A stretch of DNA of 64,000 nt from Desulfarculus baarsii DSM 2075 (GTDB taxonomy: Bacteria; Desulfobacterota; Desulfarculia; Desulfarculales; Desulfarculaceae). Shown one piece after another: positions 2,117 through 55,564 of the stretch. The stretch spans positions 3,313,501 through 3,377,500 of the forward strand of contig NC_014365.1 in NCBI RefSeq assembly GCF_000143965.1. The letters are read 5' to 3'. Each line of letters starts with the position of its first letter. The stretch's first letter is position 1. The translations under genes were made by a program, and so were the position numbers. The notes beneath the pieces are model-generated. The model was not told the DNA's origin. It saw only the letters and a program-made list of their open reading frames with translations, and did not search any database.

Positions 2117-2135
2117 CGCCTATCCTCCCCGGCCC

Positions 2136-2888: not shown

Positions 2889-3309
2889 TTGAAGCCACCT
2901 TTCCCCACTCGGCCGTCAAGTCGCCGAGCTTGGTGTTGGCGAAATAGTCCTTGATCTCCTGGCTGAGCTTGCCCAGCAACTCGCCCATGATGCAGTGGCC
3001 GCCGCAGACGGGTTGACCCAACAGGCAGCCGACTTCGCCCAATTGACCCTCGGCCGCGGCGTAGACCTCCAGCAGGCTGACCTGCTCGGGCGTTTTGGCC
3101 AGGGTGAACCCGCCGCCCGGCCCGCGCTGGGAAACGACCAGGCCGGCCTTGCCCAGGCGCTGCATGACCTTGGCCAAGTGGGCCTCGGAAGCGCCCATGA
3201 CCCGGGCGATCTCGTGGGTGGAGGCCTTGCGGCCCGGCTCGGCCGCCAGGTAGGCCATGGTGTGCAGGGCCAGGGAAGCGGCTTCGGATATATGGATGAG
3301 ACTGTTCAT
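2881..3309 (-). CDS. Rrf2-family transcriptional regulator, probably Fe-S sensing
   Basis: The 142-residue protein has an N-terminal winged helix (ISEAASLALHTMAYLA, then RGPGGGFTLA), as in IscR, NsrR and RirA. C95, C102 and C106 (C-x6-C-x3-C) lie where Rrf2 regulators hold a 2Fe-2S or 4Fe-4S cluster. This suggests sensing of redox state, iron, nitric oxide or oxygen. ATG at 3309 was chosen because it begins the conserved N-terminus and AAAGAGG lies just upstream. An 18-bp palindrome at 3326-3343, immediately upstream, is a likely autoregulatory operator. It is the first gene of the operon that continues through ferredoxin, sulfite-reductase-like and HD genes. Confidence 0.9.
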   Translation of the reverse strand: MNSLIHISEAASLALHTMAYLAAEPGRKASTHEIARVMGASEAHLAKVMQRLGKAGLVVSQRGPGGGFTLAKTPEQVSLLEVYAAAEGQLGEVGCLLGQPVCGGHCIMGELLGKLSQEIKDYFANTKLGDLTAEWGKVASNA

Positions 3310-12715: not shown

Positions 12716-12856
12716 CGATCAATCCAGGCGGCAGCGGGGCCGTTCGCCGAAAAACGACATGCCGACCCGCCTCGGCGTTGGGGCGGGCCGCCGCCAAAAG
12801 TCTATCATCGCCGGCCGGCGATTCAAGCGACGTTTGCCAGACGCCGCCCCGCCGGC

Positions 12857-14479: not shown

Positions 14480-14883
14480 CACGCCCTCCGCCCGCCCAGA
14501 TAAACCACGGCCTCGATCATCAGGGCCACGCCCTTGGGCAGGGCCGCCGCCTGCAAGGTGGCGCGGGCCGGCGCGGGCTGGCCGAAATGGGTCGCGTAAA
14601 CCTCATTGAAACGCTCGAACTGGGACAGGTCGGCCAAAAAGACCGTGGTTTTCACCACATCGGCCAATGCGGCCCCGGCCGCCCGGCAGACGGCCGCCAG
14701 GTTGGCCAGCGCCTGGCGCGTGGCCGGCTCGATATCCGGGCCCACCACCTGGCCGCTGGACGGCTCCACGGGCAGTTGCCCCGAGACAAAAAGAAAATCG
14801 CCGGCGACCACGCCGTGGGAATAAGGCCCGGCCGCCGCCGGCCCGCCCGCGGGGCAAACCGCCCCGATCGCCCTTTCGCTCAT
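14479..14883 (-). CDS. ridA: RidA family enamine/imine deaminase
   Basis: The 134-residue protein has the RidA/YjgF signatures AAGPYSHGVVAGDFLFVSGQLP, VVKTTVFLADLSQFERFNEVYATHF and PARATLQAAALPKGVALMIEAV. The conserved Arg of the PARATLQ motif binds the substrate carboxylate. Family members hydrolyse reactive 2-aminoacrylate made by PLP enzymes, and are trimers. ATG at 14883 follows GAGGGTGAAG; an upstream in-frame extension lacks similarity. It overlaps the glpD-like gene by one base. Confidence 0.92.
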   Translation of the reverse strand: MSERAIGAVCPAGGPAAAGPYSHGVVAGDFLFVSGQLPVEPSSGQVVGPDIEPATRQALANLAAVCRAAGAALADVVKTTVFLADLSQFERFNEVYATHFGQPAPARATLQAAALPKGVALMIEAVVYLGGRRA

Positions 14884-15008
14884 CTTCACCCTCGCCGCCG
14901 TCGGTCGCCCGCCGGCCTCTTCAAGACTGATCCCTGGGCCAATGTTAGCACACCGCCGGGCCGTGGCGGCGCGGTCGGCCCAGCGGCGCGAAAAAAACGC
15001 GAATTGGC

Positions 15009-15037
15009 GTGACACGGCGGCGGGAACAAGTTATAGT
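15009..15037 (+). promoter_or_regulatory. Sigma70 promoter of the acyl-CoA dehydrogenase gene
   Basis: GTGACA (15009-15014), a 17-bp spacer and TATAGT (15032-15037) each match consensus at five of six positions. They are placed about 105 bp before the start codon and directly upstream of a palindromic operator. Confidence 0.6.
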
Positions 15038-15046
15038 AACAAGCTA

Positions 15047-15069
15047 ATGAATGATGATTCAGAATTCAT
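15047..15069. promoter_or_regulatory. Putative fatty-acid-type operator upstream of the acyl-CoA dehydrogenase gene
   Basis: TGAATGATGATTCA (15048-15061) has symmetric outer arms TGAAT/ATTCA, and a second ATTCAT arm at 15064-15069 extends it. It lies just downstream of the -10 box, a position suited to repression. The half-site resembles TGAATGA-type operators bound by TetR-type FadR regulators of fatty acid degradation in Bacillus. No such regulator is encoded nearby. Confidence 0.45.
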
Positions 15070-15143
15070 ACAGCGCCGACCGCTCGCCTAGGGCCGCCGG
15101 ACGCCGTCGTTTATGACCACCGCATGGGCCATGGAGAATCAAT

Positions 15144-16967
15144 ATGGGCATCAATTACTTCAAGCGCGAAGCCAGGGACTACCAGTTTTTGCTCAATGAG
15201 CACTTCAAGATGGAAGACGTGCTCAAATACGACGCCTTCGCCGATTTCGCCATCGACGACCTGGGCATGATCATCGACGAAGCCCTCAAGGTGGGCCGCG
15301 AGGTGCTGGGGCCGGCCAACCAGGACGGCGACCGCGAGGGCGCGGTCTATCACCAGGACGGCTCGGTCACCCTGCCCAAGAGCTTCCACGACGCCTTCGC
15401 GGTCATGCGCGAAAACGGCTGGGTCTCCTACGCCAACAAGCCCGACTTCGGCGGCCAGGGCCTGCCCCAGGGCGTGGCCGCGCTGGTCACCGAGATCTTC
15501 TTCGGCGCCAACATGGCCTTTTCGATGTACACCGGCTTCTGCTCGGCGGCCGGCCGCGTCATCGAAAACTACGGCACCGACGAGGACAAGGAACTCTTCT
15601 GCACCCAGCTTTATTCCGGCGAGGCCACCGGCACCATGTGCCTGACCGAGCCCGACGCCGGCAGCGACGTGGGCGCCGCCCGCACCAAGGCCGTCAAGGA
15701 CACCTCCAGCGACGACCCGCGCATCTACTTCATCGAGGGCGTCAAGCGCTTCATCTCCTGCGGCGACCATGACATGACCGAAAACGTCATCCATCTGGTC
15801 TTGGCCCGCATCGAGGGCGATCCCGAGGGCACCAAGGGCCTGAGCCTGTTCATCGTGCCCAAGATCTGGGTCAACCCCGACGGCTCGCTGGGCGAGCCCA
15901 ACGACGTCTTCACCGCCGGCATCGAGCACAAGATGGGCGTGCACGGCTCGTCGACCTGCACGCTCAACTTCGGCGAAAACGGCAAGTGCCGCGGCATCAT
16001 CCTGGGTGAGCCCCGCACCGGCATGCCCAAGATGTTCCAGATGATGAACGAAGCCCGCCTGGGTTGCGGCATGCAGGCCCTGGGCCTGGCCGCCAGCGCC
16101 TACGACAGCGCCCGCATCTACGCCAAGGAGCGCGTCCAGAGCGCGCCGTTCATCGACCGCCGCGGCAAGGCCGTGCCGATCATCCAGCACGAGGACGTGC
16201 GCCGCATGCTCATGAACGGCAAGTCCGTCACCGAGGCCGTGCGCGCCCTGCTGTTCAAGATCGGCTACCTCACCGACATCGCCGAAAACGACCCCGACGA
16301 GGAGAAGGCCCGTCACGCCGAGCACCTGGCCGACCTGCTGCTGCCCATCGCCAAGAGCTACGCCTCCGACAAGGGCTTCGAGGTCATCCGCGACAGCATC
16401 CAGGCCATGGGCGGCGTGGGCTACTGCTCCGAGTTCCCGGTCGAGCAATACGCCCGCGACATGAAGATCATCAGCATCTGGGAAGGCACCAACTACATCC
16501 AGGCCCTGGACCTGATCGGCCGCAAGATGCAGCTCGAGGGCGGCAAGGTCTTCCAGGGTTGCCTGCAGTCGATCTTCGACTTCACCGCCGCCCACAAGGA
16601 CGACGCCGACTTCGCCGTGGACCTGAAGACCCTCTTCAAGGCCACCCAGAGCGTGGGCGACGTGGCCATGCGCTTCATGGGCTACTTCGGCGACGGCCGC
16701 GCCCAGTTGATCCCCCTGGCCGCCACCCGCTTCCAGGACAGCCTGGCCGAGTGCATCCTGGCCCAGTTGATGCTCGAGCAGGGCATGGTCGCCCGCGAAA
16801 AGCTCAAGACCGTCGATCCCAAGAGCGCCGACGGCATTTTCTACACCGGCAAAGTGGCCTCGGCCAAATACTTCTGCCGCAACATTCTGCCCAGCGTCTT
16901 CGGCCGCTACAGCGCCCTGACCATCGAGGATGACACCGCCATCACCATCCCCGAGGAGTGCTTCTAG
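15144..16967 (+). CDS. Acyl-CoA dehydrogenase, large (DmdC-like) form
   Basis: The 607-residue protein is longer than classical acyl-CoA dehydrogenases (about 380), as in the DmdC/AidB-like class with an extra C-terminal helical domain. Visible motifs are MCLTEPDAGSDVGAARTKA (FAD/substrate site) and QAMGGVGYCSEFPVEQYARD. The putative catalytic base is Glu447 in IWEGTNYIQALDL. It introduces an alpha-beta double bond into acyl-CoA, with electrons normally passed to ETF. ATG at 15144 lies a few bases after GGAG. It stands alone with its own promoter, operator and terminator. Chain length specificity cannot be read. Confidence 0.92.
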   Translation: MGINYFKREARDYQFLLNEHFKMEDVLKYDAFADFAIDDLGMIIDEALKVGREVLGPANQDGDREGAVYHQDGSVTLPKSFHDAFAVMRENGWVSYANKPDFGGQGLPQGVAALVTEIFFGANMAFSMYTGFCSAAGRVIENYGTDEDKELFCTQLYSGEATGTMCLTEPDAGSDVGAARTKAVKDTSSDDPRIYFIEGVKRFISCGDHDMTENVIHLVLARIEGDPEGTKGLSLFIVPKIWVNPDGSLGEPNDVFTAGIEHKMGVHGSSTCTLNFGENGKCRGIILGEPRTGMPKMFQMMNEARLGCGMQALGLAASAYDSARIYAKERVQSAPFIDRRGKAVPIIQHEDVRRMLMNGKSVTEAVRALLFKIGYLTDIAENDPDEEKARHAEHLADLLLPIAKSYASDKGFEVIRDSIQAMGGVGYCSEFPVEQYARDMKIISIWEGTNYIQALDLIGRKMQLEGGKVFQGCLQSIFDFTAAHKDDADFAVDLKTLFKATQSVGDVAMRFMGYFGDGRAQLIPLAATRFQDSLAECILAQLMLEQGMVAREKLKTVDPKSADGIFYTGKVASAKYFCRNILPSVFGRYSALTIEDDTAITIPEECF

Positions 16968-17142: not shown

Positions 17143-18147
17143 ATGTGGGATTTGCAGCTCATCCATTGGCTCCAGGGGTTTGGCCCTTGGCTGGTCACGC
17201 CGATGAAGTTCTTTTCAGCCCTGGGCTACAGCGGCTTCTACATCCTGTTCATCGGCGTGGTCTATTGGCTGATCGACCCGCGCCTGGGCCTGCGCCTGGC
17301 GGTGATCGCCCCACTGGCGTCGCTGTGCAATTTTGGCCTGAAGCTGTTCATGATCGAGCCGCGGCCCTATTGGCTCGATCCCACGCTCTTGGCCCTCAGC
17401 CCCGAAAAAGACCTGGGCATGCCTTCGGGCCACGCCATGGGCACGGCGGCGATGTGGGGCTATCTGGCGCTTTGGGTTGGCCGGCCCTGGTTTTGGGCGT
17501 TGTGCCTGGGCTTGCTGGCGCTGATCGGCCTTTCGCGGCTGGTGTTGGCGGCCCATTTCCCCGACCAGGTGCTGGCCGGCTGGGCCCTGGGCGGCGCGCT
17601 GGCCGTGGCGGCCTGGCGGCTGGAGGAACCCCTGGCCGCGTTCCTGCGCCGCTGGCCGGCCTGGCGCATCTGGCTGGGCCTGGGCCTGACGGCGGCGCTG
17701 ATGCTCCTGGGCCTGTGGCTGCACGGCCGCCTGGCCGGCTGGACGCCGCCGGCGCTCTGGACGCAAAACGCCCTGGCCGCCGCGCCAAAGGGCGGCGTCA
17801 TCGACCCGCTGCGCCTGAAATATCTCTTTGCCCACGGCGGCGCGCTGGCCGGGGTGGTCGGCGGCGGGGCCTGGATCTGGGGCAAGGGCTCGTTCCGGCC
17901 GGCGACGAGCTGGCCAGCCAGGCTCAAGTGCCTGGCTCTGGGCCTGGCCGGCGTGATGCTCCTGGGCGCGGCCGCCGAGACCTGCTATGGCCTGGCCCCG
18001 GAAAGCGCCGTCGGCCTGGCCGGCATGGCCCTGCTGTCGATGGCCAGCGGGGCCTGGGCCACGGCCGTGGCCCCGTTTTATTTCGTCCGCCTGGGCTGGG
18101 CCATGCGGCGCGAGCCGGTGCCCGGCCAGGCAAAGCGGGTCGAGTAG
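17143..18147 (+). CDS. PAP2-superfamily membrane phosphatase
   Basis: The 334-residue protein has all three PAP2 motifs: KLFMIEPRP (KxxxxxxRP), PSGHAMG (PSGH) and SRLVLAAHFPDQ (SRxxxxxHxxxD). They lie among about eight to nine transmembrane segments. These enzymes dephosphorylate lipid phosphates such as phosphatidic acid, undecaprenyl or sphingoid phosphates at the membrane surface. ATG at 17143 follows GGAGG. The last 14 codons (from MRREPVPG) and the stop lie inside the first unit of a 96-bp tandem repeat. The natural C-terminus may therefore have been replaced when the repeats arrived or expanded. Confidence 0.88.
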   Translation: MWDLQLIHWLQGFGPWLVTPMKFFSALGYSGFYILFIGVVYWLIDPRLGLRLAVIAPLASLCNFGLKLFMIEPRPYWLDPTLLALSPEKDLGMPSGHAMGTAAMWGYLALWVGRPWFWALCLGLLALIGLSRLVLAAHFPDQVLAGWALGGALAVAAWRLEEPLAAFLRRWPAWRIWLGLGLTAALMLLGLWLHGRLAGWTPPALWTQNALAAAPKGGVIDPLRLKYLFAHGGALAGVVGGGAWIWGKGSFRPATSWPARLKCLALGLAGVMLLGAAAETCYGLAPESAVGLAGMALLSMASGAWATAVAPFYFVRLGWAMRREPVPGQAKRVE

Positions 18148-18403
18148 GCAAGTTTAACACCTACCGTCCGTGGCTCCCGGTGTAAGGGGAGTCAATGATC
18201 GCGGCGCGAGCCGGTGCCCGGCCTCCCACGGCGGGTCGACCAGGCCAGCTCAACACCTACCGTCCGTGGCTCCCGGTGTAAGGGGAGTCAATGATCGCGG
18301 CGCGAGCCGGTGCCCGGCCAGGCAAAGCGCGTCGAGTAGGCAAGTTTAACACCTACCGTCCGTGGCTCCCGGTGTAAGGGGAGTCAATGATCGCGGCGCG
18401 AGC
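18105..18403 (+). repeat. 96-bp tandem repeat, three units plus 11 bp
   Basis: Units start at 18105, 18201 and 18297, each exactly 96 bp and beginning GCGGCGCGAGCCGGTGCCCG; an 11-bp partial copy starts at 18393. Units 1 and 3 are nearly identical. Unit 2 differs over about 30 bases in the middle (18221-18250). Each unit holds a 26-bp core ACACCTACCGTCCGTGGCTC... ending in GGTG (cores at 18157, 18253, 18349) and a GCCGG-TGC-CCGGC hairpin. The same core recurs in inverted orientation five times at 22303-23009. No spacer or cas gene makes it a CRISPR array. Between 18404 and 18577 only the presumed leader of the autotransporter gene is seen. Confidence 0.92.
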
Positions 18404-18577
18404 GCTGAACGCGCCCAGGCGGCGGCCGATGCGCCCGCCGCCAAACAAAGTTCTTGTATAGTTGGCTATCGTTATCTAATGTGGCCAATTAAGCTGTCCA
18501 AACCGTTCCAGCCATTGGCAACTTCCACGCCACGGATGGATCAATTTTTCACGCCGCTTGCGCCATAGGGGGGCTCC

Positions 18578-21500
18578 ATGCTTTGTCGTGTCAGTGCGTC
18601 ATTGTTTCCCGCGCGAACCCGCGCCTGGTCTGCCCCGACCCTGGCCGCCGTTTGCCTGCTGGCGGCGTTGGGCCTGGCCTGCGCCGCGCCGGCCTGGGCC
18701 GCCACCGCCAGCAACGCCGGCGCGATCGTGGGCGACTGGCTGGGCACCGCCGATGACGACGATTACACCAACGAAAGCACCGGCTCCATCAGCGGCGACG
18801 CCAACATGGCCCAGGGCGGCTCGGACGAATTCACCAACGCCGGCTCCATCAATGGCTCGATCTTCATGAGTTCCGACGGCCACAACACCGTCACCAACTC
18901 CGGCACGGTGAACGCCGCCATCTACGGCAACGCCAACACCGACGCGGGCGCCAGCAGCGGCCACAACACCATCACCATCACCAACTCCGGCACGGCCGAC
19001 TCTCTCTTGGGCAGCTTGAACACGGGCGCGGGCTCCAGCGGCGGCGAAAACACCATCTACAATTATGGCACGGTGCATAGCGACATCATCGGCAGCGACA
19101 ACTTTGGCGAGAACACCAGCGGCGGCCAAAACATCATCTTCAACTACGGCTCGGCGGCTAACGTTTTTGGCAGCAGCAACACCGGGGCGAACACAAGCGG
19201 CGGCGACAACGTCATTTTCAACGCCGACGCCGCCTCGGTCAGCGGCGACATCATCGGCAGCGAAAACACGGGCGGGAACGCCAGCGGCGGCGACAACACC
19301 ATCGTCAACTCCGGCACGGTCAGCCAATACATCCGCGGCAGCAACAACACGGGCGCGGGCTCCAGCGGCGGCGACAACACCATTTACAATTACGGCTCCG
19401 CGATGTCCCTGCACGGCTCCAGCAACGCCGGCGAAAACAGCCAAGGCGGCGAAAACACCATCTACAACTACGGTTCCACGGGCTCCATCAGCGGCAGCTA
19501 CAGCTCCGGCATCGGCGCCAGCGGCGGCTCCAACATCATCTACAACCATGGCTCGGTGAGCTACGAGGTCTTCGGCTCCCGCAACACCGGGGACAACGCC
19601 TCAGGCGGCGGAAACTACATCTACAACTACGGCACGATCGGCCAATACCTCCACGCCAGCCAAAACTACTGGGACAACTCCAGCGGCGGCGAAAACCTCG
19701 TCTACAACTACGGCACGATCACCAGCAATTTATACGGCTGCTGGAATCGCGGCGCGGGCTCCAGCGGCGGCGGCAACATCCTCTACAACTACGGCTCGGT
19801 CGGCGGCAACCTCATCGGCAGCTACAACCGTGGCGCGGGCTCCAGCGGCGGCGGAAACATCCTCTACAACTACGGCTCGGTGACTGGCGACATCTACGGC
19901 AGCCGCGACTACGGCGCGGGCTCCAGCAGCACCGGCAACTTTATCTACAACTATGGCTCGGTCGGCGGCGGCATTTACGCCGGCAACGGCGACGACACGG
20001 TCTACATCGACGGCGGCTCGGTGGGCGGCGTGGTCGACGGCCAGGACGGCGACGACTCGCTGATCCTGCTCAACATCGCCGGCGTCGTCAGCTCCAGCAA
20101 ATACATCAATTTCGAAAACTTCGGCATGAGCACCTCGCGCGACCTCACCCTGGCTGGCAACTGGTCCTTCAACATGGGCATGTCCATCAACGGCGGCCGC
20201 ACCACCATCAGCGACAACGTTTTCGCCTCGCTGGCCACCGTCAACGGCGGCGTGCTCGACGTGGCCGGCACGTTGTCGACGGGCCTGTTGCACATCGGCG
20301 GCAACGGCTATCTGATGGGCTCGGGCCGGATCAACGGCAACGTCGTCAACGGCGGCTACATTTCGCCGGGCAACAGCATCGGCGCGCTCTACATCGACGG
20401 CGACCTGACCATGACCGCCGACAGCGTCCTGCTGGCCGAACTGGCCGCCGACGGCAGCGGCGACGTCATCAACGTCAGCGGCGCGCTGACCATGCAGGGC
20501 GGGCAGGTGGCGGCCTATCTGGAGCGCGGCCTCTACGTCGATGGCTCTGAGTGGACGCTGATCAACGCCGGCTCCGTCAGTGGCCAGATGGCCGGGCTCA
20601 ACTTGCTGACGCCCTCCAACGTCATCGGCCTGACGGCCCAAACCACCAGCGACGGCCTGCTGGCCACCGTCAACCGCACGCCATACGCCTCCTTTGGCGT
20701 CACGGCCAACCAGCGGGCGGTGGGCGCGGCCCTGGACTCCATCGTGCCCCACGCCGCCTCGCGCGGCGACGCCATGGCCGCGCTGCTGACCAGCGTGGAC
20801 TTTGATTACGACCAACAGCAGATAAGCGGCCTGCTGGCCGCCGCCAACCCCGAGATGTACGACGGCCTGAGCTGGGCGGCCCTGGCCGGGGCCCGGCGCT
20901 TCGACGCGGCCATGCAAAACCGCGCCGACTGGGGCCGGGTGGCCCAACGCCTGGGCGCGCCCCTGGAGGCGACCACCCAACAACACGCCGGCGGCCAATG
21001 GTCGCTGTGGACCAGGGCCGTGGGCGGCTGGGACCGCCGCAGCGCCGAAAACGGCTACCTTGGCTATCAGGCCGATTCCGGCGGCGTGGTGCTGGGGGCC
21101 GATGGCCAGCTGTTGCCCTGGCTGCGCCTGGGACTGGCCTTTGGCGGCGACGAAACCAAGGTGAACTTCAGCCAGCAAGGCGATAACGGCGACCAAAAAA
21201 GCATGCGCGGCGGTCTCTACGCCGCCGCCGACCTGGGTGAGTTCTACCTGAACGGCGCGGTTTCCTACGCCACCTTCGATAACGACGCCAACCGCTCGGT
21301 CATCTTTGCCGGCCAAGGCGCCACCGCCCAGTCCTCCTACGACGGCCAGGCCTGGCTGGCCAGCCTGGGCGGCGGCTGGGATCAAAAACTGGCCGCCTGG
21401 CTGCTCGGCCCCATGGCCAGGCTGGACTACCTGAGCCTGTCCGAGGAAAGCTTCAGCGAACGAAACGCGGGCCTCATGAGCCTGAACGTGGGCGACCGCA

Positions 21501-32836: not shown

Positions 32837-33502
32837 TCAGTGGAGCCCCATGCGCGCGGCCGTGACGGCGGCCATGGCCCGGTCGTTGACGCCGAGTTTG
32901 TTGAAAATGTTGCCCACGTGGGTCTTGACCGTGTGCGGGCTGATGCACAGGGCCCTGGCGATTTCGTTGTTGGTCATGCCCGAGGCCACCAGGCGCAGCA
33001 CCTCCATCTCGCGGCCCGACAAGCCGCTCTCCTCGGCCTCGGCCGGCGGGGCGGCCAAGGCCGGGCGGCCGCGCAGGCTGCGCTCCAGGCCCTCGACATA
33101 GCGCTCCAGGCGGCGGCGACTGACCCGATCATCGGTCACGTCAAAACCGATCTTGAGCACGTACTCCACCCGGCCGGCCTCGTCGAAGATGGGATAGGCG
33201 TAGACCGCATTGCAGCGCCGGCCACCGTGGGCCATCGACCATTTGTCGCTCACGTTGCGGCGGCCCTGTTCAAAAACCACCCGCAAGGGGCAGTCCGGGC
33301 AGGGCTCGGCGCGCTCCTGGAAGGCGTGGTGACACAACTTGCCCTCGGGCCGGCCGTTTCGGCGCACCCAGTCAGAATCGTCGGCGATGTTGGTCCAAAC
33401 CACGCGGTGTCGGCGGTCGATGACGCTCATGGGGTCGTGGATGCTTTGCAGGATATCCGGCAGAAACCGGCTGACCAGGGCTTGGGCGACGAGGGCTTGC
33501 AT
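32837..33502 (-). CDS. PAS-LuxR transcriptional regulator
   Basis: The 221-residue protein has an N-terminal PAS domain (about residues 15-130) and a C-terminal LuxR/GerE helix-turn-helix (about 158-215). The PAS carries KLCHHAFQERAEPCPDCPLRVVFEQG. The HTH reads LSGREMEVLRLVASGMTNNEIARALCISPHTVKTHVGNIFNKL. The CH...PCxxCP cluster in the PAS is typical of a delta-proteobacterial subgroup and may sense redox or bind a metal. There is no receiver domain. It lies 76 bp downstream of the cytoskeleton-like operon on the same strand, with AT-rich promoter-like DNA between. Confidence 0.88.
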   Translation of the reverse strand: MQALVAQALVSRFLPDILQSIHDPMSVIDRRHRVVWTNIADDSDWVRRNGRPEGKLCHHAFQERAEPCPDCPLRVVFEQGRRNVSDKWSMAHGGRRCNAVYAYPIFDEAGRVEYVLKIGFDVTDDRVSRRRLERYVEGLERSLRGRPALAAPPAEAEESGLSGREMEVLRLVASGMTNNEIARALCISPHTVKTHVGNIFNKLGVNDRAMAAVTAARMGLH

Positions 33503-33578: not shown

Positions 33579-34301
33579 TCACGGCCGATCTTGCGCCAAG
33601 GGCAACGCCAGCAGCCCTTGTTCGACCACCAGCTTGCCCCGCAGGCGCGCGGCCCGCAGCACGCGGAACCGCGGGCCGTTGGCGCGCTCGAAAATGCCCT
33701 GCAACCATGCGTCGCCGCCCCAACCACCGTCGGCCAGCAGCAGCGACTGGCTGGCGTAGGCGTCGAACGACGGCACCAGAAACTCCTCGCCGGCCCACCG
33801 CAGGGCGTAATAATGCACCTCCTGCCCGGGGCCGGGCCGGCTCCACTCCGGGGCGACATCGGGGTTGACGCGACGGGCGTCATAATTGCGCAGCCGATAG
33901 TCGGCCAGCGCGAATCGATCGGCCAGATCCTCGGCCTGGGGATAGCCCGGTTTTTCCAACGACGCGTTATAGGCGCTCAACAGTTCGTCAACCACGTCGT
34001 CGTGGCCTTCCGGCGACGGCGCGCCCACGGCGGACGCTTCGCCTCTCTGGCGCTCGACGGCCGCGCCGCTCGCTTTTTCCAGGGCTTGAACGCGTTGGTC
34101 GGTTTGCGCCATCCAACCGCCCAGCGCGCAAGCTTGGCTTTCGGCCAGGTCCAGGCGTTCGGCCAGCGCGGCGCAGGGCGACTCGGCCGACGGCGCGGCG
34201 GCCTTGGCCGCCCGGCGCAGGGCCAGCACCGCCAGGATCAGGGCCGCCGCCCCCAACGCGGCCCCCGCCGCGGCCATGACGAGGATCAACGTTTGCGACA
34301 T
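33579..34301 (-). CDS. Membrane-anchored protein of the tubulin/actin-like operon
   Basis: The 240-residue protein has an N-terminal transmembrane helix (about residues 4-30, LILVMAAAGAALGAAALILAVLAL) and a helical stretch with coiled-coil character (about 45-90). The soluble C-terminal domain starts near DDVVDELLSAYNASLEKPGY and ends at LVVEQGLLALPLAQ. No family is recognised. ATG at 34301 follows the stop of the 1142-residue ATPase-like gene after two bases (TAGCCATG), so translation is probably coupled. It may tether the complex to the inner membrane. Confidence 0.7.
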   Translation of the reverse strand: MSQTLILVMAAAGAALGAAALILAVLALRRAAKAAAPSAESPCAALAERLDLAESQACALGGWMAQTDQRVQALEKASGAAVERQRGEASAVGAPSPEGHDDVVDELLSAYNASLEKPGYPQAEDLADRFALADYRLRNYDARRVNPDVAPEWSRPGPGQEVHYYALRWAGEEFLVPSFDAYASQSLLLADGGWGGDAWLQGIFERANGPRFRVLRAARLRGKLVVEQGLLALPLAQDRP

Positions 34302-34303
34302 GG

Positions 34304-37300
34304 CTACACCGCGCCGTTGGATTTCATCCAGATGTCGATATAAGTCCTCAGCGTGGTGATGAAGGGCGCGCTGACGTGGATGACCCGCCCCGCGCCGCTG
34401 GTCGTGGGCATGGCGCTGTCGATCAATTGATTCTTCTCGGCGTTGTATTGCTCGCGCACCGACTCCACCAGCTTGAGCCGCACCTTCTCGTCCCAAGGCG
34501 CCGGGATGGCGAAAACCTGGCTGAACAGGCGCAGGAACGCCGCGAACTGGGTCAGCTCCAGCGCATCCAGCCCGGCCACGACGTCGGATGTTTTCAGCTC
34601 CTCGTAATGGCTGATGCGCCGACCGCCCACGTCGATGTCCTCGCCGCTGATCACCGCCGTGGAGAATTCGCCCATGTGCAGCGGCAGGTCGTCCGAGCTC
34701 AGCAAGGCCCCGTAGGCCACCTCCTGCTTGGGGTCTTGGCTGAACACGAACTCCAACGCGCCGCCGCCCAGCGAATATTTCTCGTAGATGGCCTTGAGCC
34801 CGTCCAGGAACTCCTTGTCGGACTCGATCACCGACTTGAACAGCTTGCTGCCCCGGCCGCCCAGGCAGAACTTCATGGGCGTCTGGTCGTCGACCAACGG
34901 GGCGTCCAGCCGGAAATGCTGGGTGACCATGCCCATGTAGGCGCAGAGGCCGGCCAGGGCGACCTTGGCCACCAGCACCAGACCCGCGAAGGGCGGAGAC
35001 GAACGATACATGGCCATGTTGGCGTCGAGCATCTGGCCAAAATCAGGGCTGTTGACCACCATCTCGATGGCGTAGGTCAGGTGCGCCTTGTTCTCCTTGT
35101 TTGCGCCCAGCTCGGTCAGGGCCGCGTCCAGCGACGACTTGTTGGGGCCCTTGCCGGCCATGTGGGCCAGCAGGTCGCGGCGGTGGTTTAGGTAGCCGAT
35201 GAGCAGGTCGCGGCCGCCGAACTTCAGCGATGACTGCCAGATGAGCTGGTTGTCGCGCCACAGGCAGATATCGCTGGTGACGCCACCCATGTCCACGGTG
35301 ATGGCCGAACCGGCGAAAGAGGTTTTCATCTTGTGGCGGAAATAGCCGGCCGCGGCCAGGCTCTCGGTGACGAAGGCGCTGCGGGCCTTGGCCTCGCCGA
35401 CGTTGTCTTCGCCCAACAGCGCGGCCACGGCCTTGCAGAAGCAACCCTCCAGATCGATCATGTGCCGGCCCATGGACAGCGGGTAGGAAAAGACCCAATT
35501 CACGCGGCGCGGGTCGGCCCCCTTTTGCACCACATCCACCAGCGATTGCAGGGCCAACTGCCCCACATAAACAATCAGCCGGCGGATGTCGTCGACCTCG
35601 GCCCGCCACTTCAGGTCGAAGTTGATGCGCCGCCGGCCCTTCTCCTGGTCTTCCAGATAGCCTTTGAGCGCCCGCCGGATATCCAACTGGTAGTAGATGC
35701 GGCCGTCGATCAGCGGCCCGTCGTAGCCGTTGGCCAGGTCGTGAAAGTCTTCCAGGCAGCTCAGCACCGGCAGGGCGGTCTGTTCCGGCGGCAGGAAGCG
35801 CAGGGACAGTTCGTCACGCCAGGTGTCGCGCTCGCGGCCCAGGGGGATGAGGATCTGGGGCGAGAACACCATCGGTTCGGGGTCGTTGCGGCCGCGGCGG
35901 CAGTACGCCGAGGTGTTGGTGGAGCCCAGGTCGATGGCGATGCGCCAATCCTCGTCACTGGAGTGGGCCGCCTCCATGGCCGGCAGCAGGATCACGCCGG
36001 CCAAGCGCGTCTCGGTGGTCTTTATTTCGGTCGGCTCCTCGCTACGGCAGATGATGGCGCTGGGCTGGTGGTCCATGCGCATCACGCCCGAGAGCAGGCC
36101 GGTGACGGTGGACTTTTCGCGGACAACATTGACGGCCAGCCCCGCGTCAAAGGCGAACTTGTCGTTTTGCACCACGTCCAGCAGATCGTTGTCGCCGCTG
36201 CGCAGGTTTTTTTCGGCAAAGCAGGTCGAGAACGGCAGGTCGACCAGGGGGCTGATCTTGGTGTTGCCGCTGTAGGGAAAAAAGTATTGGCCAAAGCCGG
36301 GATGGGTGAACCTGGGGTAGACGCCCAACATGGGCGGCGCGCCAACCTTGACGCTTTCGCGGGGGTAGCGCTTCTTGATGATGGCCTGGCGTTTTTCGCC
36401 GGCGCGGCTGGAGATCAGCTCCAGACGCAGGCTGACCGTGATGGCCTCGCCGTAGTCCTCCATGGCCAGGGCGACCTTGATCTGATCGGGGGTCATGAAA
36501 TAGAGCATCTTGGGCTTGAGCGGCAGGATGTAGCCCTCCATGCCCTGGGGGTGCGCGTCGATGGAGGCGTTGTCGAGCTTGTGCAGCCTGTCGGTGAAGA
36601 TGTCGTCGACGCCGAGCATGATGGTGTTGGCGGCGCGCATCTCGGCGCGGAGCTTGTCTTTTTGCGCCTGGTTCAGGCTGTCGTAGTGGCTGTAGGACAC
36701 CCTCCGCCAGATGGTGACGTCGGTCTCGGGCAGGCCCCATTGTTTGGGCAGGTCGTCGATGCGCACCACGACCTGGCGCCGGTCGGCCACCGCGCCGCTC
36801 AGGGTCCAGTATTGCTCGGGCAGGGCCACGTCGGAAACCATGCCTCCATTGTCCAGGCAGGAGGGCAGCCTGTTGAGCAAGGCGTAGATGGAAAAATCAG
36901 GCGTCTCGATGGCCGAAGATTCACCGAGGGCCATCTTGGTCATTTCGCGCGGGCCGATGGCCGTCCGCAGGGCGTCCAGATATTCTTGCAGCTGTTTGTT
37001 GAGGTGGCCGTGCAGGTCGTGGTTGAGGCCGTCGGGTATGTTGTTGATGCTTTCTTGGATATGATCCACGTAGTGGTGAATGGCCGAATAATCGTCCAGG
37101 GTCAAGTGCTTGCAGAGGATGGGATCGGTGAAGCGGCCGTCGACGATCCAGGGCAGGCCGCCGACGTTGAGCCTCAGCTTGCCCCGGGCCGGGCAGACCA
37201 GGGTCGTGGGCGAAAGCAGGTCCACCACCGCGCGGTCGACGTAGAGCAAGGCCAGTTGGTCCCAGGCCTGGTCCTGACGGTCGCGCAGCAGGCATTCGGC

Positions 37301-37732
37301 CGGGCGCATGCCGTGAAGCACCTCGGCCAGGTTGACCTTGTTCGTGGCCGACGCCGCGTCGCCGTGAAAGGGCCGGGCGGCCAGGGTGCTGACACGCAGC
37401 ACCTTGGAATACACCGGCAGGTCGCGCAGGCTGGTCAGGGCCAGCAGAGCCAGCATGCCGCGCCAAGCGGCCACGAAGCGCTCGTGGAGCACGTGGTTGC
37501 CATCGCCAAAGGCCGTCTTGAACAGCTCGACTTGGGCCCAGACGTCGGGGATGGAAAAAATGCGGGCCACGTTCTGGTCGATGTTGGTGACGTCCAGGGC
37601 CTCGGCCAGGGTGTGCAGAAACATGGAACTTTCGCCGGTCATGCGCTCCCACTCGCCCACCGCTCCCAGGGGCAGGATGATCTTGCTGGCGGGGGGCAGC
37701 ACAAGCCGCGGCTCGAGATTGTTGTCGCTCAT
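34304..37732 (-). CDS. Large protein with actin/Hsp70-like ATPase core
   Basis: The 1142-residue protein has an unassigned N-terminal region of about 590 residues. An actin/Hsp70-type ATPase region follows. Phosphate-1 motif WRIAIDLGSTNTSAY begins near residue 592, and phosphate-2 motif AITVDMGGVTSDICLW near 807. FCLGGRGSKLFKSV (about 940) resembles the adenosine motif. The C-terminal 150 residues are helical. This architecture is far longer than MreB, FtsA or DnaK and has no DnaK substrate-binding domain. It could polymerise or act as an ATP-driven switch. ATG at 37732 follows GGGAGA. It lies 47 bp after the tubulin-like gene, in the same operon. Confidence 0.78.
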   Translation of the reverse strand: MSDNNLEPRLVLPPASKIILPLGAVGEWERMTGESSMFLHTLAEALDVTNIDQNVARIFSIPDVWAQVELFKTAFGDGNHVLHERFVAAWRGMLALLALTSLRDLPVYSKVLRVSTLAARPFHGDAASATNKVNLAEVLHGMRPAECLLRDRQDQAWDQLALLYVDRAVVDLLSPTTLVCPARGKLRLNVGGLPWIVDGRFTDPILCKHLTLDDYSAIHHYVDHIQESINNIPDGLNHDLHGHLNKQLQEYLDALRTAIGPREMTKMALGESSAIETPDFSIYALLNRLPSCLDNGGMVSDVALPEQYWTLSGAVADRRQVVVRIDDLPKQWGLPETDVTIWRRVSYSHYDSLNQAQKDKLRAEMRAANTIMLGVDDIFTDRLHKLDNASIDAHPQGMEGYILPLKPKMLYFMTPDQIKVALAMEDYGEAITVSLRLELISSRAGEKRQAIIKKRYPRESVKVGAPPMLGVYPRFTHPGFGQYFFPYSGNTKISPLVDLPFSTCFAEKNLRSGDNDLLDVVQNDKFAFDAGLAVNVVREKSTVTGLLSGVMRMDHQPSAIICRSEEPTEIKTTETRLAGVILLPAMEAAHSSDEDWRIAIDLGSTNTSAYCRRGRNDPEPMVFSPQILIPLGRERDTWRDELSLRFLPPEQTALPVLSCLEDFHDLANGYDGPLIDGRIYYQLDIRRALKGYLEDQEKGRRRINFDLKWRAEVDDIRRLIVYVGQLALQSLVDVVQKGADPRRVNWVFSYPLSMGRHMIDLEGCFCKAVAALLGEDNVGEAKARSAFVTESLAAAGYFRHKMKTSFAGSAITVDMGGVTSDICLWRDNQLIWQSSLKFGGRDLLIGYLNHRRDLLAHMAGKGPNKSSLDAALTELGANKENKAHLTYAIEMVVNSPDFGQMLDANMAMYRSSPPFAGLVLVAKVALAGLCAYMGMVTQHFRLDAPLVDDQTPMKFCLGGRGSKLFKSVIESDKEFLDGLKAIYEKYSLGGGALEFVFSQDPKQEVAYGALLSSDDLPLHMGEFSTAVISGEDIDVGGRRISHYEELKTSDVVAGLDALELTQFAAFLRLFSQVFAIPAPWDEKVRLKLVESVREQYNAEKNQLIDSAMPTTSGAGRVIHVSAPFITTLRTYIDIWMKSNGAV

Positions 37733-37779
37733 GGTTTTCTCCCGTCAAGGCGTGACGCCTGGCGTTTTCCGGTTTGACC

Positions 37780-39321
37780 TCAACTGATTTGGCAGGCCTC
37801 GTGCAGCGCGCCGACGAAGCGCCCCAAACCGTTGGCGCGGGCCGGCGGCTGGCCCTGGTTGACCCGCCAGAACACCCCGGCCAAGTCGGAAGCCGGCGCG
37901 TCGTGGACCAGGTTGGCGAAGGACTTGCGGTCGAACTGTTCGGCCGGCCGCAGGGGCGGTTGGCCGCGGGTGACCTTGGCCGGCTTTTCGGCGAAGGCCA
38001 TGGCCTCCACCAATGCGGTGCGGTTGTCCTCGCCCAGGGGCAGGTGGCACAGGGCGGCCAGCCAGCCCAGGACGTCGCGGCAATAGCCGTGCAGGTTGCG
38101 CAACGTCTCCGCGTTGGCGTCCACGGACAGGTCCACGCGCGCCTCGTCGATGAGCTTTTGCCGCCACGGCTGGCCCCGATAGGCCTCGTGCTCCTTGCGG
38201 CCCATGTAGGGCCCGTAGGCGTTGAGGAAGGCGAAGGCGAAACGGCACAGCGAGCCAAGGCCGTGCTTGAGGCCGATCTCCCGGTCGCCGTGGTCGACGC
38301 TCATCCCCGGCAGGGCGTTCCACGAAAGGGTCTCCTTGACCCCGGGGCAACTGGTGTAGAAATAGCCGCTTTCGTCCTTGGTGAAAAAACGCGCCGCGCT
38401 CAGGGCGGCGTAGAGTTCGGGCAAGAGCGAGGGATTCTCCTGGCCACGGTTGCCGATCTGCTCGTAGTCCAGTGGGATCAGCGGGTTCCAGCCCACGAAA
38501 TAGAGGCTCTCGAACAGGCGTTTCTGGGCGAAGGACTCGTCCCGGAACAAATGATGATAGTACTTCAGCGCGCCCTGGGTCTGGCCGAGGAAGTCCGAGG
38601 AATTCATGAACGCGCCGTCGCCCTGCACCTGGGGAAAGCTGAAGTAAGGCAGCATCATGCAGCCGCCCACCTTGAAGCTGTCGCCGTTGTCCATGTTTTT
38701 GACCCGCTCCCACAGCTTGCGGGCCAGGATGGGCATGCCCGAGGCCCCCGTGCCGCCAAAGATCGAGGCCACCAAAAAAATGCGCACCTTCAAGCCCGAG
38801 CGCACCAGGTTGAGGCTGCCCAGCAGGTCGTTCCAAAAGGCCGCGCCGCTGAGGCTTTTGGATTGCAGGGCCGTGGCCCCCAGGTAGGGTCGGCCGCGAA
38901 AGCCCACGTCGAGCTTGGTCTGGCGGTCCTGTCCATCAAAAAAGGTGTGAAAGAGGTTTTTCAGGTCGGGGACCATCAGTGCTTCACTGAACAGCTCCGA
39001 AAGATTGGGCACGCCGGGCGCGGGGGCCCACACGGCGGTGGAGGCCCCCTGCGCGCCGTCGGTCTCGGTGGGGAAGTCGACCTTGGAGCGCAAAAACGGG
39101 CTCTGGCCCAGGTCGTTGTCGCCGCTGCGCAGGCTGGTGTGCAGGCCGCCATAGTTCCTGAGCAGGTTTTTGGTCCGCGTCACGTTGCCGTTGGACTCGT
39201 CCTGGTCGACCATGCCGATCCACACGTCGTGGCCGATCAGGCCGGCTGCGGCCAGATGGACGAATGACTCCAGGCACTTGGCCCCAGTGCCGCCCATGCC
39301 TATCAGATAGCATTTTGTCAT
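37780..39321 (-). CDS. Tubulin/FtsZ-like protein
   Basis: The 513-residue protein begins MTKCYLIGMGGTGAKCLESF, the nucleotide-binding strand-loop of tubulin-like proteins. Near residue 187 it has LVASIFGGTGASGMPILARKL, equivalent to the GGGTG[TS]G signature loop of FtsZ and tubulin. Length and spacing fit the prokaryotic tubulin-like group rather than FtsZ itself (about 380). It presumably binds GTP and may form filaments. ATG at 39321 follows GAGGCGG. It lies 15 bp after the 4-TM gene and 47 bp before the actin/Hsp70-like gene. Confidence 0.78.
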   Translation of the reverse strand: MTKCYLIGMGGTGAKCLESFVHLAAAGLIGHDVWIGMVDQDESNGNVTRTKNLLRNYGGLHTSLRSGDNDLGQSPFLRSKVDFPTETDGAQGASTAVWAPAPGVPNLSELFSEALMVPDLKNLFHTFFDGQDRQTKLDVGFRGRPYLGATALQSKSLSGAAFWNDLLGSLNLVRSGLKVRIFLVASIFGGTGASGMPILARKLWERVKNMDNGDSFKVGGCMMLPYFSFPQVQGDGAFMNSSDFLGQTQGALKYYHHLFRDESFAQKRLFESLYFVGWNPLIPLDYEQIGNRGQENPSLLPELYAALSAARFFTKDESGYFYTSCPGVKETLSWNALPGMSVDHGDREIGLKHGLGSLCRFAFAFLNAYGPYMGRKEHEAYRGQPWRQKLIDEARVDLSVDANAETLRNLHGYCRDVLGWLAALCHLPLGEDNRTALVEAMAFAEKPAKVTRGQPPLRPAEQFDRKSFANLVHDAPASDLAGVFWRVNQGQPPARANGLGRFVGALHEACQIS

Positions 39322-39336
39322 TGCCGCCTCACTGCA

Positions 39337-39852
39337 TCAATGAGCGCCGCGCTTGGCAACAGCCGCGCGGAAGATTGTCGGAGAGCCCAGGTACACGGCC
39401 AGCGCCGCCAGGAGCACGAAAAACACAAAGCCAAACGCGGCGACATAGGCCACGGCCAGCCGATCAAAAATATGGGATAACCCGACCAGGGCGCCCGCCA
39501 GGCCGGCCTGGCAGAAGGCCAGGACGATCATGAACCAGCGGGTGCGCTTGGCCTCGCGCAGCCACTCGGCCGGGTCGGCCGGGCGCGAACGATAGAGCAC
39601 CACCGCCCAGGCGACCAAAAGCACCAAAGTCGCGCCACCCACAATCATCACGCCGTCGCCGAGGCCCCTGATCATCGTCTGGGCCAGGCCATACTCGTCG
39701 ATCAACGGGTAGAGCTTGTTGCGCAGCAAATTGACCAACCAGCGCCCGGTGATCAGCGGGATGAGGAAATACCACGCGGCCAGGCCGGCCAGCTCCACCG
39801 CGACCAGGCAGATCAGCTTGCGCAAGTAATCTTTGAGATAGGCGTTTTTCAT
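39337..39852 (-). CDS. Four-TM membrane protein of the tubulin/actin-like operon
   Basis: The 171-residue protein has about four transmembrane helices (about residues 14-35, 66-87, 104-125 and 132-153). Between the first two, RNKLYPLIDEYGLAQTMIRG looks like a soluble loop. There is no similarity that I recognise. ATG at 39852 is 15 bp downstream of the vWA-like lipoprotein gene and 15 bp upstream of the tubulin-like gene. It may be the inner-membrane hub linking periplasmic and cytoplasmic parts. Confidence 0.7.
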   Translation of the reverse strand: MKNAYLKDYLRKLICLVAVELAGLAAWYFLIPLITGRWLVNLLRNKLYPLIDEYGLAQTMIRGLGDGVMIVGGATLVLLVAWAVVLYRSRPADPAEWLREAKRTRWFMIVLAFCQAGLAGALVGLSHIFDRLAVAYVAAFGFVFFVLLAALAVYLGSPTIFRAAVAKRGAH

Positions 39853-39867
39853 CGACGGACTCCACTC

Positions 39868-41478
39868 CTATTCCATCACGCGAAAGCACATGTCCAGTTG
39901 CGCCAGCGGCTTTTGCCGGGCCAGGCGCTGGCAGCTCCGTTGCAGGTGGCCGCAGAACTGCCGCAGGTCGGGCGTGCCCAGGAACTCCATCTCCTCGGGC
40001 CGGCGCTCGCCCCGCCGCTCGGCGAAATCCCATTGGGCGATCCAGCCGTCGTCGGGCCAACTCAGGGCGATGGCCCACACCTTGGTCGACAGCAGATAGG
40101 TGAGCGAAACATCGGGGTAGTAGGCCCCGCTGCCCGTGGGCCGGCCCAGCGCCAGGCGCGCGACGCCGGCGGACGCGTCGTCTTGCCGCCCGGCCAGCGG
40201 CTTGGCCTCGGCGGACGCCTTGTCTTGCCGCCAGGCCAGCGGCGCGACCTCGGCGGGCGTCACGCGCCAGCGATCGGCGCACCGCCCGGCCGTCTGCCAG
40301 CCTTGGTAGGCCCAGCATTTCTGCGAGAAGTCCAGCTCGGCGGCCTTGGGGCCACGGGGGTGATCGTCGTCGCCGGCGGGCAGGATCAACCTCAACGGCG
40401 ATTCGGGCCGCACCCGCCACTCCTGGTGCTTGGGCCACAGGCCTTCGTCGAGCAGCAGGCCGTCGTCGGGTTCGAAATCTAAGCTGGGCCGCAAAGCGCC
40501 TTGGGCGTAGAGTTCGGCCATGGTCCAGGGGCCGGCCGCGCCGGGGACGCCGAAGACGATGACGCGATAGTGGCTGTCTTCGTCCTTGGGCTTGGCGGGG
40601 CGGCCAGGCCCCGGCGGCGGCGCGGGCGTCGGGCAGAGCGGCGGGAGGGCCTGCCGGGACAGACCGGCCAGGCATTCGCGCTCGATAGCCTCCAGGAACG
40701 CCTTGACATGCCTGGGGCGGCCGATGGCCAGCACGTAGAACGGCAGCTTGCCCGCTGGATGGGCGTAGGTGAATCTGTCCAGGCCGGGCAGATCGTAGAT
40801 GGCGCCGGCAAAGCGGCTGGGCACGGCCACCAGCCCCACGGCCTTGCCGCCCTCCAGGGCCCGGTCCAGGGCGGCCTTGCTCAGGTCCATCATTCCCTTG
40901 GCCGAGTGGCCGTGGCAAAAAAACAGGTCGCTGAAGATGATGGAGAGGGTGTCGTCCCCTTCTTTGGCCGCTTGTTCCAGGGCCAGCTCCAGGCGGCTTT
41001 CGTCGTGGAACTTGTCCGCTGGCGCGCCATTGGCGGATATGTAGGCCACGTCGTAGGGCTCGCCGGCCATGCCCGCTATCTCCATGACCTTGGCGTAGCC
41101 CCGCCGCCGTCGCTGGTCGTCGTCCTGGCCCTGGCCCTGGCCAAAGGGCTCGATGCCCCTGCCAAAGCGGTGCAGCAGCTTGACCGCGCCCTGGGCCGCG
41201 TACTCCGCGCCCACGTAGCGCGCCACCAGCGGATAATTGTGGCCTGGCTCGGCCTTGTTGCGGTCCTTGGGCAAAAAGCCGCGCATGCTGGTCGAGACGT
41301 CGTAATAGACCTTGATCCACTTCAGGGCCCCGGGCTGGGGCGTGGCCTTTTTTGGCCCGGCGGCCAGGGCGGCGGCCAGGGCGGCGGGCAGGCACTCGGC
41401 GGGCTCGGGCGCGCAGGCGGCGGCCGATAGCGTCAGCGCCAGCAAGACAAGCCACGCGGCCAATGATCGATGCGGCAT
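39868..41478 (-). CDS. vWA-like lipoprotein of the tubulin/actin-like operon
   Basis: The 536-residue protein has a lipoprotein-type signal (LALTLSAAAC, Cys22, an imperfect lipobox). KWIKVYYDVSTSMRGFLP follows, where D60-x-S62-x-S64 is a vWA MIDAS motif. SIIFSDLFF lies where a later MIDAS strand is expected. A DKASAEAKPLAGRQDDAS segment shows a short internal duplication (about 16 residues twice). The mature protein should face the periplasm. ATG at 41478 follows GGGAGGAG. It is the first gene of the operon; a strong terminator for the upstream chemoreceptor lies about 80 bp before it, so the promoter must be in 41479-41560. Confidence 0.75.
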   Translation of the reverse strand: MPHRSLAAWLVLLALTLSAAACAPEPAECLPAALAAALAAGPKKATPQPGALKWIKVYYDVSTSMRGFLPKDRNKAEPGHNYPLVARYVGAEYAAQGAVKLLHRFGRGIEPFGQGQGQDDDQRRRRGYAKVMEIAGMAGEPYDVAYISANGAPADKFHDESRLELALEQAAKEGDDTLSIIFSDLFFCHGHSAKGMMDLSKAALDRALEGGKAVGLVAVPSRFAGAIYDLPGLDRFTYAHPAGKLPFYVLAIGRPRHVKAFLEAIERECLAGLSRQALPPLCPTPAPPPGPGRPAKPKDEDSHYRVIVFGVPGAAGPWTMAELYAQGALRPSLDFEPDDGLLLDEGLWPKHQEWRVRPESPLRLILPAGDDDHPRGPKAAELDFSQKCWAYQGWQTAGRCADRWRVTPAEVAPLAWRQDKASAEAKPLAGRQDDASAGVARLALGRPTGSGAYYPDVSLTYLLSTKVWAIALSWPDDGWIAQWDFAERRGERRPEEMEFLGTPDLRQFCGHLQRSCQRLARQKPLAQLDMCFRVME

Positions 41479-55470: not shown

Positions 55471-55564
55471 GGAGAGGTGACCGAGTTGGCCGAAGGTGCA
55501 CGACTGGAAATCGTGTGCGCTCTTAAAAGGGGCGCCGAGGGTTCGAATCCCTCCCTCTCCGCCA
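55471..55564 (+). tRNA. tRNA-Ser (GGA anticodon)
   Basis: The acceptor stem GGAGAGG (55471-55477) pairs with CCTCTCC (55554-55560), then G and encoded CCA. The anticodon stem CACGA/TCGTG encloses loop CTGGAAA with anticodon GGA. The long variable arm (GCGCTCTTAAAAGGGGCGC) and GGTTCGAATCC T-loop are typical of tRNA-Ser. It reads UCC and UCU codons. Confidence 0.96.

Follow-up and report, generated by a model that had tools for sequence, protein, structure and literature searches.

The genome of Desulfarculus baarsii is a single contig of 3,655,731 bases, of which positions 3,313,501–3,377,500 were analysed here; this stretch of 64,000 nucleotides is referred to as the window. Its minus strand carries five ORFs between 41478 and 33579, with intergenic gaps of 15, 15, 47 and 2 bp. 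The layout had been described in an earlier note on this DNA and was confirmed for all five ORFs, which are, in gene order:

39868..41478, minus strand: vWA-like lipoprotein, 536 aa, first gene (ORF, lipobox-like site, MIDAS-type motif)
39337..39852, minus strand: small integral membrane protein, 171 aa, four predicted TM segments (ORF, four hydrophobic segments)
37780..39321, minus strand: TUB, predicted tubulin/FtsZ-superfamily GTPase-fold protein, 513 aa (motifs, model, profile matches)
34304..37732, minus strand: ACT, 1142 aa, an N-terminal region of ~590 aa and a predicted actin/Hsp70-superfamily ATPase domain (residues about 593–1024)
33579..34301, minus strand: single-TM anchored protein, 240 aa, last in the operon (one N-terminal TM by hydropathy)

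A Shine-Dalgarno-like GGGAGGAGC precedes the ATG at 41478 that starts the lipoprotein gene. Upstream, an MCP-type gene ends 294 bp before the operon, and a terminator-like hairpin lies between the two. A gene that by eye encodes a PAS/LuxR-type regulator is found on the same strand 76 bp downstream of the operon (window 32837–33502); it was not seen at the equivalent locus in Dethiosulfatarculus and is therefore probably not part of the module. The GC content of the operon is 0.659 versus 0.669 for the window, and thus gives no sign of recent acquisition in D. baarsii. The sole RNA family match in the window is a tRNA-Ser (GGA) at 55471–55564. PADLOC and NCBIfam returned nothing useful for the five proteins (PADLOC matches, 0), none of which is recognisable as a nuclease, pore or toxin effector.

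Two predicted NTPases

Tubulin-type and actin-type NTPases constitute the two great cytoskeletal superfamilies. Are both encoded in this operon? The earlier note had proposed a tubulin fold for the 513-aa protein and an actin/Hsp70 fold for the 1142-aa protein, and structure prediction upholds both proposals. TUB carries T1-like (GMGGTGAKC) and T4-like (FGGTGASG) motifs, and the GTP-binding glycine loops and core residues are invariant over 12 sequences. The closest structures to an AlphaFold model built from nine sequences, which is of modest confidence (pTM 0.76, mean pLDDT 65.7), are FtsZ, CetZ and tubulin, with FtsZ the best (Z 15.4, rmsd 3.6, 187 residues). The structural match covers residues 1 to about 350, beyond which TUB has no match to the FtsZ C-terminal domain. 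No conserved NxDxxD (T7-type) motif was seen in the TUB alignment, and residues 318–347 of the model have a pLDDT <50. A hydrophobic stretch at residues 181–199 falls inside the predicted NTPase fold and there is no clear membrane anchor. Taken together, motifs and model indicate a tubulin-type nucleotide-binding fold.

The window ACT contains the motifs IAIDLGSTNT and ITVDMGGVTSD. Residues D601 and G603 of the phosphate-1 motif, D814, G816, G817 and D821 of the phosphate-2 motif, and the adenosine-type G959 are invariant over 12 ACT sequences. When an ACT profile was compared with the PDB, Hsp70 ATPase-domain chains were matched (best E 3.5e-8). The model, also derived from nine sequences, is of modest confidence (mean pLDDT 56.2) and scores higher in the ATPase region. 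There, the best match to residues 593–1024 is an Hsp70-type chain from the RAC complex (Z 20.1, 301 residues); DnaK, FtsA, MreB and actin follow at Z about 18–19. A hydrophobic stretch (residues 918–936) lies within the predicted NTPase fold, and a clear membrane anchor was not found in this protein. These data point to a two-lobed actin/Hsp70 (ASKHA) fold with intact motifs. A candidate identity as SrfB (PF07520) was rejected; the operon has no SrfB profile match.

To which branch of the superfamily does ACT belong? Weak Pfam matches among the 12 ACT members are to FtsA (5/12) and MreB (4/12), while PF00012 (HSP70) is matched by none of the 12 at E 0.01, and as far as the data go ACT can be assigned no further than 'actin/Hsp70 superfamily'. 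It has been considered that ACT is a specialised Hsp70-like chaperone and TUB a regulatory GTPase, the two serving as a protein-handling or secretion accessory that assembles or exports envelope components. By sequence and by fold, the ATPase indeed matches Hsp70-type chains best, and further Hsp70-matching genes occur near one homologous module (locus L015) and in a canonical Tubulin_2 operon (L047). However, besides the missing Pfam HSP70 match, no Hsp70 substrate-binding domain was recognised after the ATPase domain of ACT, where ~120 mostly helical residues are found, and the operon encodes neither a J-protein nor an exchange factor. A chaperone function is thus improbable.

Distribution and linkage of the module

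Homologues are present in Desulfobacterota, Pseudomonadota, cyanobacterial plasmids, Prevotella and IMG/VR contigs. The nearest named relative with the module is Dethiosulfatarculus sandiegensis, in which the order of the five genes is kept (43% identity for TUB, 29% for ACT) and the flanking genes differ from those in the window. G844, a genome of the Pseudomonadota group, likewise has the five genes in this order, and the vWA-TM-TUB-ACT core was found again in further loci. The conservation of gene order in Dethiosulfatarculus with other flanks, and in G844, argues that the arrangement is not due to chance.

The module is rare among the sampled genomes from which the following counts were obtained. 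In the GTDB family of D. baarsii, only its genome and G001 carry it among 20 listed genomes, some of them incomplete. A single-sequence search found the module in 2/148 relatives, and 395 genomes of Desulfobacterota searched with a TUB profile yielded G407 in addition, giving 2/395 when query-bearing genomes are included. A profile search of 398 genomes from the phylum of an alphaproteobacterial relative added G844 and G602 (3/398, again including query-bearing genomes). A TUB pair profile run on genome contigs recovered Dethiosulfatarculus and two near-identical alphaproteobacterial genomes. Five contigs were matched in the TUB-started scan of IMG/VR; rather than viruses, these contigs may represent provirus-flanking host DNA. 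TUB had no match in phage records, and additional viral scans gave no contigs beyond those already known.

Searches started from ACT covered plasmids, Desulfobacterota (single-sequence), IMG/VR and genome contigs; all others were started from TUB. The 1142-aa ACT alone matched nothing in the genome-contig scan, where the TUB alignment worked, because peptide stretches of ACT are too divergent. The single-sequence ACT search of the 395 Desulfobacterota genomes returned only the D. baarsii genome itself. Similarly, tblastn of IMG/VR with an ACT profile gave no match, although a profile search finds ACT on the TUB-bearing contigs, which marks a limit of sensitivity. Among 72,556 plasmids, separate searches with the TUB and ACT proteins returned an identical set of six records, namely Gloeothece, three Picosynechococcus, Synechococcus NIES-970 and Prevotella. 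The compared flanks differ and the module is rare; it thus behaves as a mobile accessory unit with a patchy distribution.

Actin and tubulin folds serve plasmid partition, and the presence of several homologues on cyanobacterial plasmids raises the question of whether the pair could be a TubZ- or ParM-like cytoskeleton for the segregation or positioning of mobile elements. By contrast, the D. baarsii copy is chromosomal and the copies in Dethiosulfatarculus and G844 lie on long non-plasmid contigs. Furthermore, a DNA-binding adaptor was not recognised among the operon products, and the pair has a lipoprotein and membrane proteins as constant partners. We regard a segregation role as very improbable.

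The earlier note had suggested a survey of gene neighbourhoods, and this revealed a conserved association. Neither outcome that the note had named as refuting, a lack of the two folds or homologues that never occur together, was seen. TUB and ACT are adjacent or part of one polypeptide in all 14 distinct loci (near-duplicates counted once), and in every locus ACT follows TUB directly or is in the same chain; all 11 records that were searched with the ACT profile contain ACT. Nearly every locus has a vWA-like gene next to the pair, together with one for a small membrane protein. Where the pair is unfused, both lie ahead of TUB and the membrane protein has 3–4 TM segments, the vWA-like gene of Gloeothece being divergent. 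The Gloeothece plasmid NC_014503.1 (L065) also encodes a second ACT-like protein of about 838 aa (747–3239, E 1e-209), which has no TUB of its own, as the TUB search matches this record at one place only.

Two natural fusions were found, and they come from different search groups. In G407 (L064:9358-14073), a single ORF of 1571 aa matches the TUB profile at residues 88–196 (i-E 1e-12) and the ACT profile at residues 977–1317 (ATPase part, i-E 6e-16). In G602 (L063:10498-5198), an ORF of 1766 aa matches both profiles in pieces (i-E 1e-5 and 7e-11 for TUB, 4e-7 and 3e-6 for ACT). Both fusions have TUB at the N-terminus and ACT at the C-terminus, matching the order of the two genes where they are separate. 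Genes downstream of the G407 fusion encode a coiled-coil protein with one TM, a vWA-like product carrying DLSVS and then ZorA-like and ZorB/OmpA-like proteins, and a TM-anchored protein with DGSRS is encoded near the G602 fusion.

A direct functional link between the two NTPases is strengthened by these fusion proteins, which are the strongest evidence that TUB and ACT may act together. Moreover, trees of TUB and ACT from 12 loci are correlated with r 0.91, a value reached in 0/5000 label permutations. The correlation shows joint movement of TUB and ACT, and part of it comes from shared species history. It is very likely that the two proteins form a physical complex.

The three remaining products had been described as a vWA-like lipoprotein, a 4-TM protein and a one-TM anchored protein. 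The two membrane proteins are borne out by hydropathy: there are four hydrophobic segments in the 171-aa product, to which a 3–4-TM protein of 129–199 aa corresponds in position at the unfused loci, and a single N-terminal TM in the 240-aa product. Dethiosulfatarculus has a homologue of the latter (23% identity, E 2.5e-8), and other membrane, coiled-coil or peptidoglycan-binding proteins take the fifth position at other loci; at L005, for instance, a PG_binding_1 protein follows ACT.

The lipoprotein calls for more reserve. The predicted protein has an N-terminal hydrophobic segment, a lipobox-like AAAC at residues 19–22 and the MIDAS motif DVSTS at residue 60, which agrees with the earlier description. 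Relatives at most other loci also have a lipobox and [DE]xSxS, and the DxSxS form is seen in the window protein and several homologues; in some relatives the MIDAS motif is degenerate (L005, L015, L017). Pfam VWA, on the other hand, was matched neither by the window protein nor by any of ten homologues, and the vWA profile match is weak and confined to the MIDAS region. Since this Pfam match is missing, the vWA assignment derives from the MIDAS-type motif and its context, and the fold is putative.

Relation to known systems

The function of the FtsZ-like-1 branch has been open since 2010, and the branch would gain a compact, testable version in the module described here. Makarova and Koonin (2010; PMC2875224) linked FtsZ-like-1 families to vWA genes and proposed a role in membrane remodelling. 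In the main text they name neither actin nor Hsp70 as a partner, and ACT may be one of the associated families that are left unnamed there. The connection to FtsZ-like-1 drawn in the earlier note holds at the level of profiles: 9/12 TUB homologues match Tubulin_2 (PF13809) at E 0.01 or better (best 9.7e-12), 6/12 match the tubulin GTPase family of Pfam, and hhalign of TUB with five canonical Tubulin_2 proteins gives a probability of 95.9% over 85 columns. It does not hold for the window TUB taken singly, which matches Tubulin_2 at E 5e-4 with 19.8 bits, below the curated cut-off of 27.

Canonical Tubulin_2 proteins occur in 12/297 genomes of the phylum of D. baarsii and are mostly 950–1250 aa in length. 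They have a coiled coil and a C-terminal helical domain, whereas the 513-aa TUB lacks both. The GGTG-type nucleotide loops are shared and profiles place both in the same divergent branch of the superfamily. In one Tubulin_2 operon from Desulfobacterota (L048), the FtsZ-like gene is directly preceded by a gene for a secreted vWA protein and one for a small TM protein, an order common to the window operon. However, ACT always follows TUB in the module, while in 11 Tubulin_2 regions ACT-like ATPases were matched only in L047 and, weakly, in L041. TUB can be read, from these sequence comparisons, as a compact and distant sister lineage of FtsZ-like-1/Tubulin_2. The L047 match, from a canonical Tubulin_2 operon of Desulfobacterota, is a 966-aa HSP70-matching protein (12844–15744, PF00012 E 6e-7); the pairing of tubulin-like and Hsp70-like proteins may thus have arisen more than once.

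Could the module remodel membranes by means of filaments, as was already proposed for FtsZ-like-1 operons (PMC2875224)? TUB would polymerise under the membrane, ACT would tether or regulate it in the manner of FtsA, and the membrane proteins would shape the envelope. The tubulin and actin/FtsA-type folds of TUB and ACT fit this scheme, as do FtsA being the Pfam family with the most matches among ACT members (5/12) and the order of signal-peptide vWA, small TM and FtsZ-like genes at L048 in the same phylum. Against it stand the part of TUB without a counterpart in the FtsZ C-terminal domain and the rarity and mobility of the module, which are unlike a basic remodelling function. In addition, a reviewer whose comments were published with the 2010 paper questioned in what way cytoplasmic and outer components could act on one membrane. 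Membrane remodelling is unlikely, yet it is the alternative to which we give the most weight.

FtsA–FtsZ is the main bacterial case of a tubulin-type and an actin-type protein known to work as a pair. As in the module, an actin-fold ATPase and a tubulin-fold GTPase are encoded together; unlike FtsA, ACT has ~590 extra N-terminal residues, and the module is mobile and rare and includes a vWA-like lipoprotein and membrane partners. The earlier note had taken the presence of both superfamilies in one operon as a reason to postulate an envelope machine. Both folds are predicted to be present, but the argument is weakened because ordinary ftsA-ftsZ already pairs them and the D. baarsii genome has its own canonical, adjacent ftsA and ftsZ elsewhere, with the motifs GGGTGTG and NLDFADV. 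Is the module then a duplicate of the cell-division pair? The fold pairing is identical; however, the canonical genes are in place, TUB has no Pfam FtsZ-level similarity and ACT is >2x the size of FtsA, so that this origin is hardly credible. A second, unrelated obligate pair of tubulin and actin type with natural fusions, partners in the envelope and a mobile distribution would offer a testable system for NTPase coupling.

Another comparison is with the GAP1-N2 systems of Kaur et al. (2020; PMC7159879), who predicted GTPase-centred, membrane-proximal conflict systems in which tubulin and HSP70 themes do not overlap. Like the module, some of these systems combine tubulin with an extracytoplasmic vWA protein and others contain HSP70, and they are membrane-proximal and patchy. 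By contrast, GAP1-N2 systems are built around TRAFAC GTPases together with GAP1 and zinc ribbons, whereas in the module the tubulin-like protein and the ATPase are obligate partners; a Pfam search of the five window proteins gave no P-loop GTPase family. A likeness to Zorya is confined to two distantly related loci, L018 and L064, in which ZorA-/ZorB-like (MotA/MotB-type) genes lie directly downstream of the module (L018 14541–16127 and 16117–16911; L064 16409–19038). The window operon has no ZorA/B and no PADLOC match.

A possible envelope-anchored switch

What might the module do? The reading to which we tentatively incline, at a little short of even confidence, is that the operon encodes an envelope-anchored NTP switch complex with an accessory role in conflict, defence or envelope stress. 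TUB as a cytoplasmic GTPase and ACT as an ATPase would work jointly as a coupled switch or polymer driven by nucleotides, in which GTP and ATP would be turned over and the nucleotide cycle of one would gate the other, much as FtsA and FtsZ affect each other. Docking of the complex on the inner membrane would fall to the 4-TM and 1-TM proteins; the vWA-like lipoprotein would be the extracytoplasmic part that binds or senses a ligand and reports or acts on the periplasmic side, so that signals could pass across the envelope. The ZorA/ZorB-like genes at two loci and the peptidoglycan-binding protein at L005 suggest contact with the cell wall. The module would travel as a unit between genomes and serve as an accessory system rather than a housekeeping one, which is favoured by its rarity and carriage on plasmids. 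The conflict systems with tubulin or HSP70 and vWA proteins (PMC7159879) provide a precedent that supports a conflict role. Against the switch reading weigh the missing PADLOC match and effector among the five proteins, the T7-type catalytic residue that could not be assigned in TUB, the degenerate MIDAS motif of some vWA-like relatives and the modest confidence of the models. A more specific version is possible but rather doubtful: a distinct composite machine in which an obligate TUB-ACT unit, a single chain in some bacteria, couples cytoplasmic hydrolysis to an extracytoplasmic vWA-like sensor, for defence or conflict between elements.

Other genes accompany the module at single loci. At L017, two tandem paralogues of ~192 aa come after the module (17682–18863) and are preceded by an 880-aa TPR protein; a TerD-like identity, assigned by eye, was dropped, as the one that was scanned had no Pfam match. 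At L015, an extra and more canonical Hsp70 is encoded near the module (19990–20981, PF00012 E 3e-30) and is cut by the end of the locus. Finally, a gene for a UvrD/GajB-like helicase lies upstream in L018 (2907–5417).
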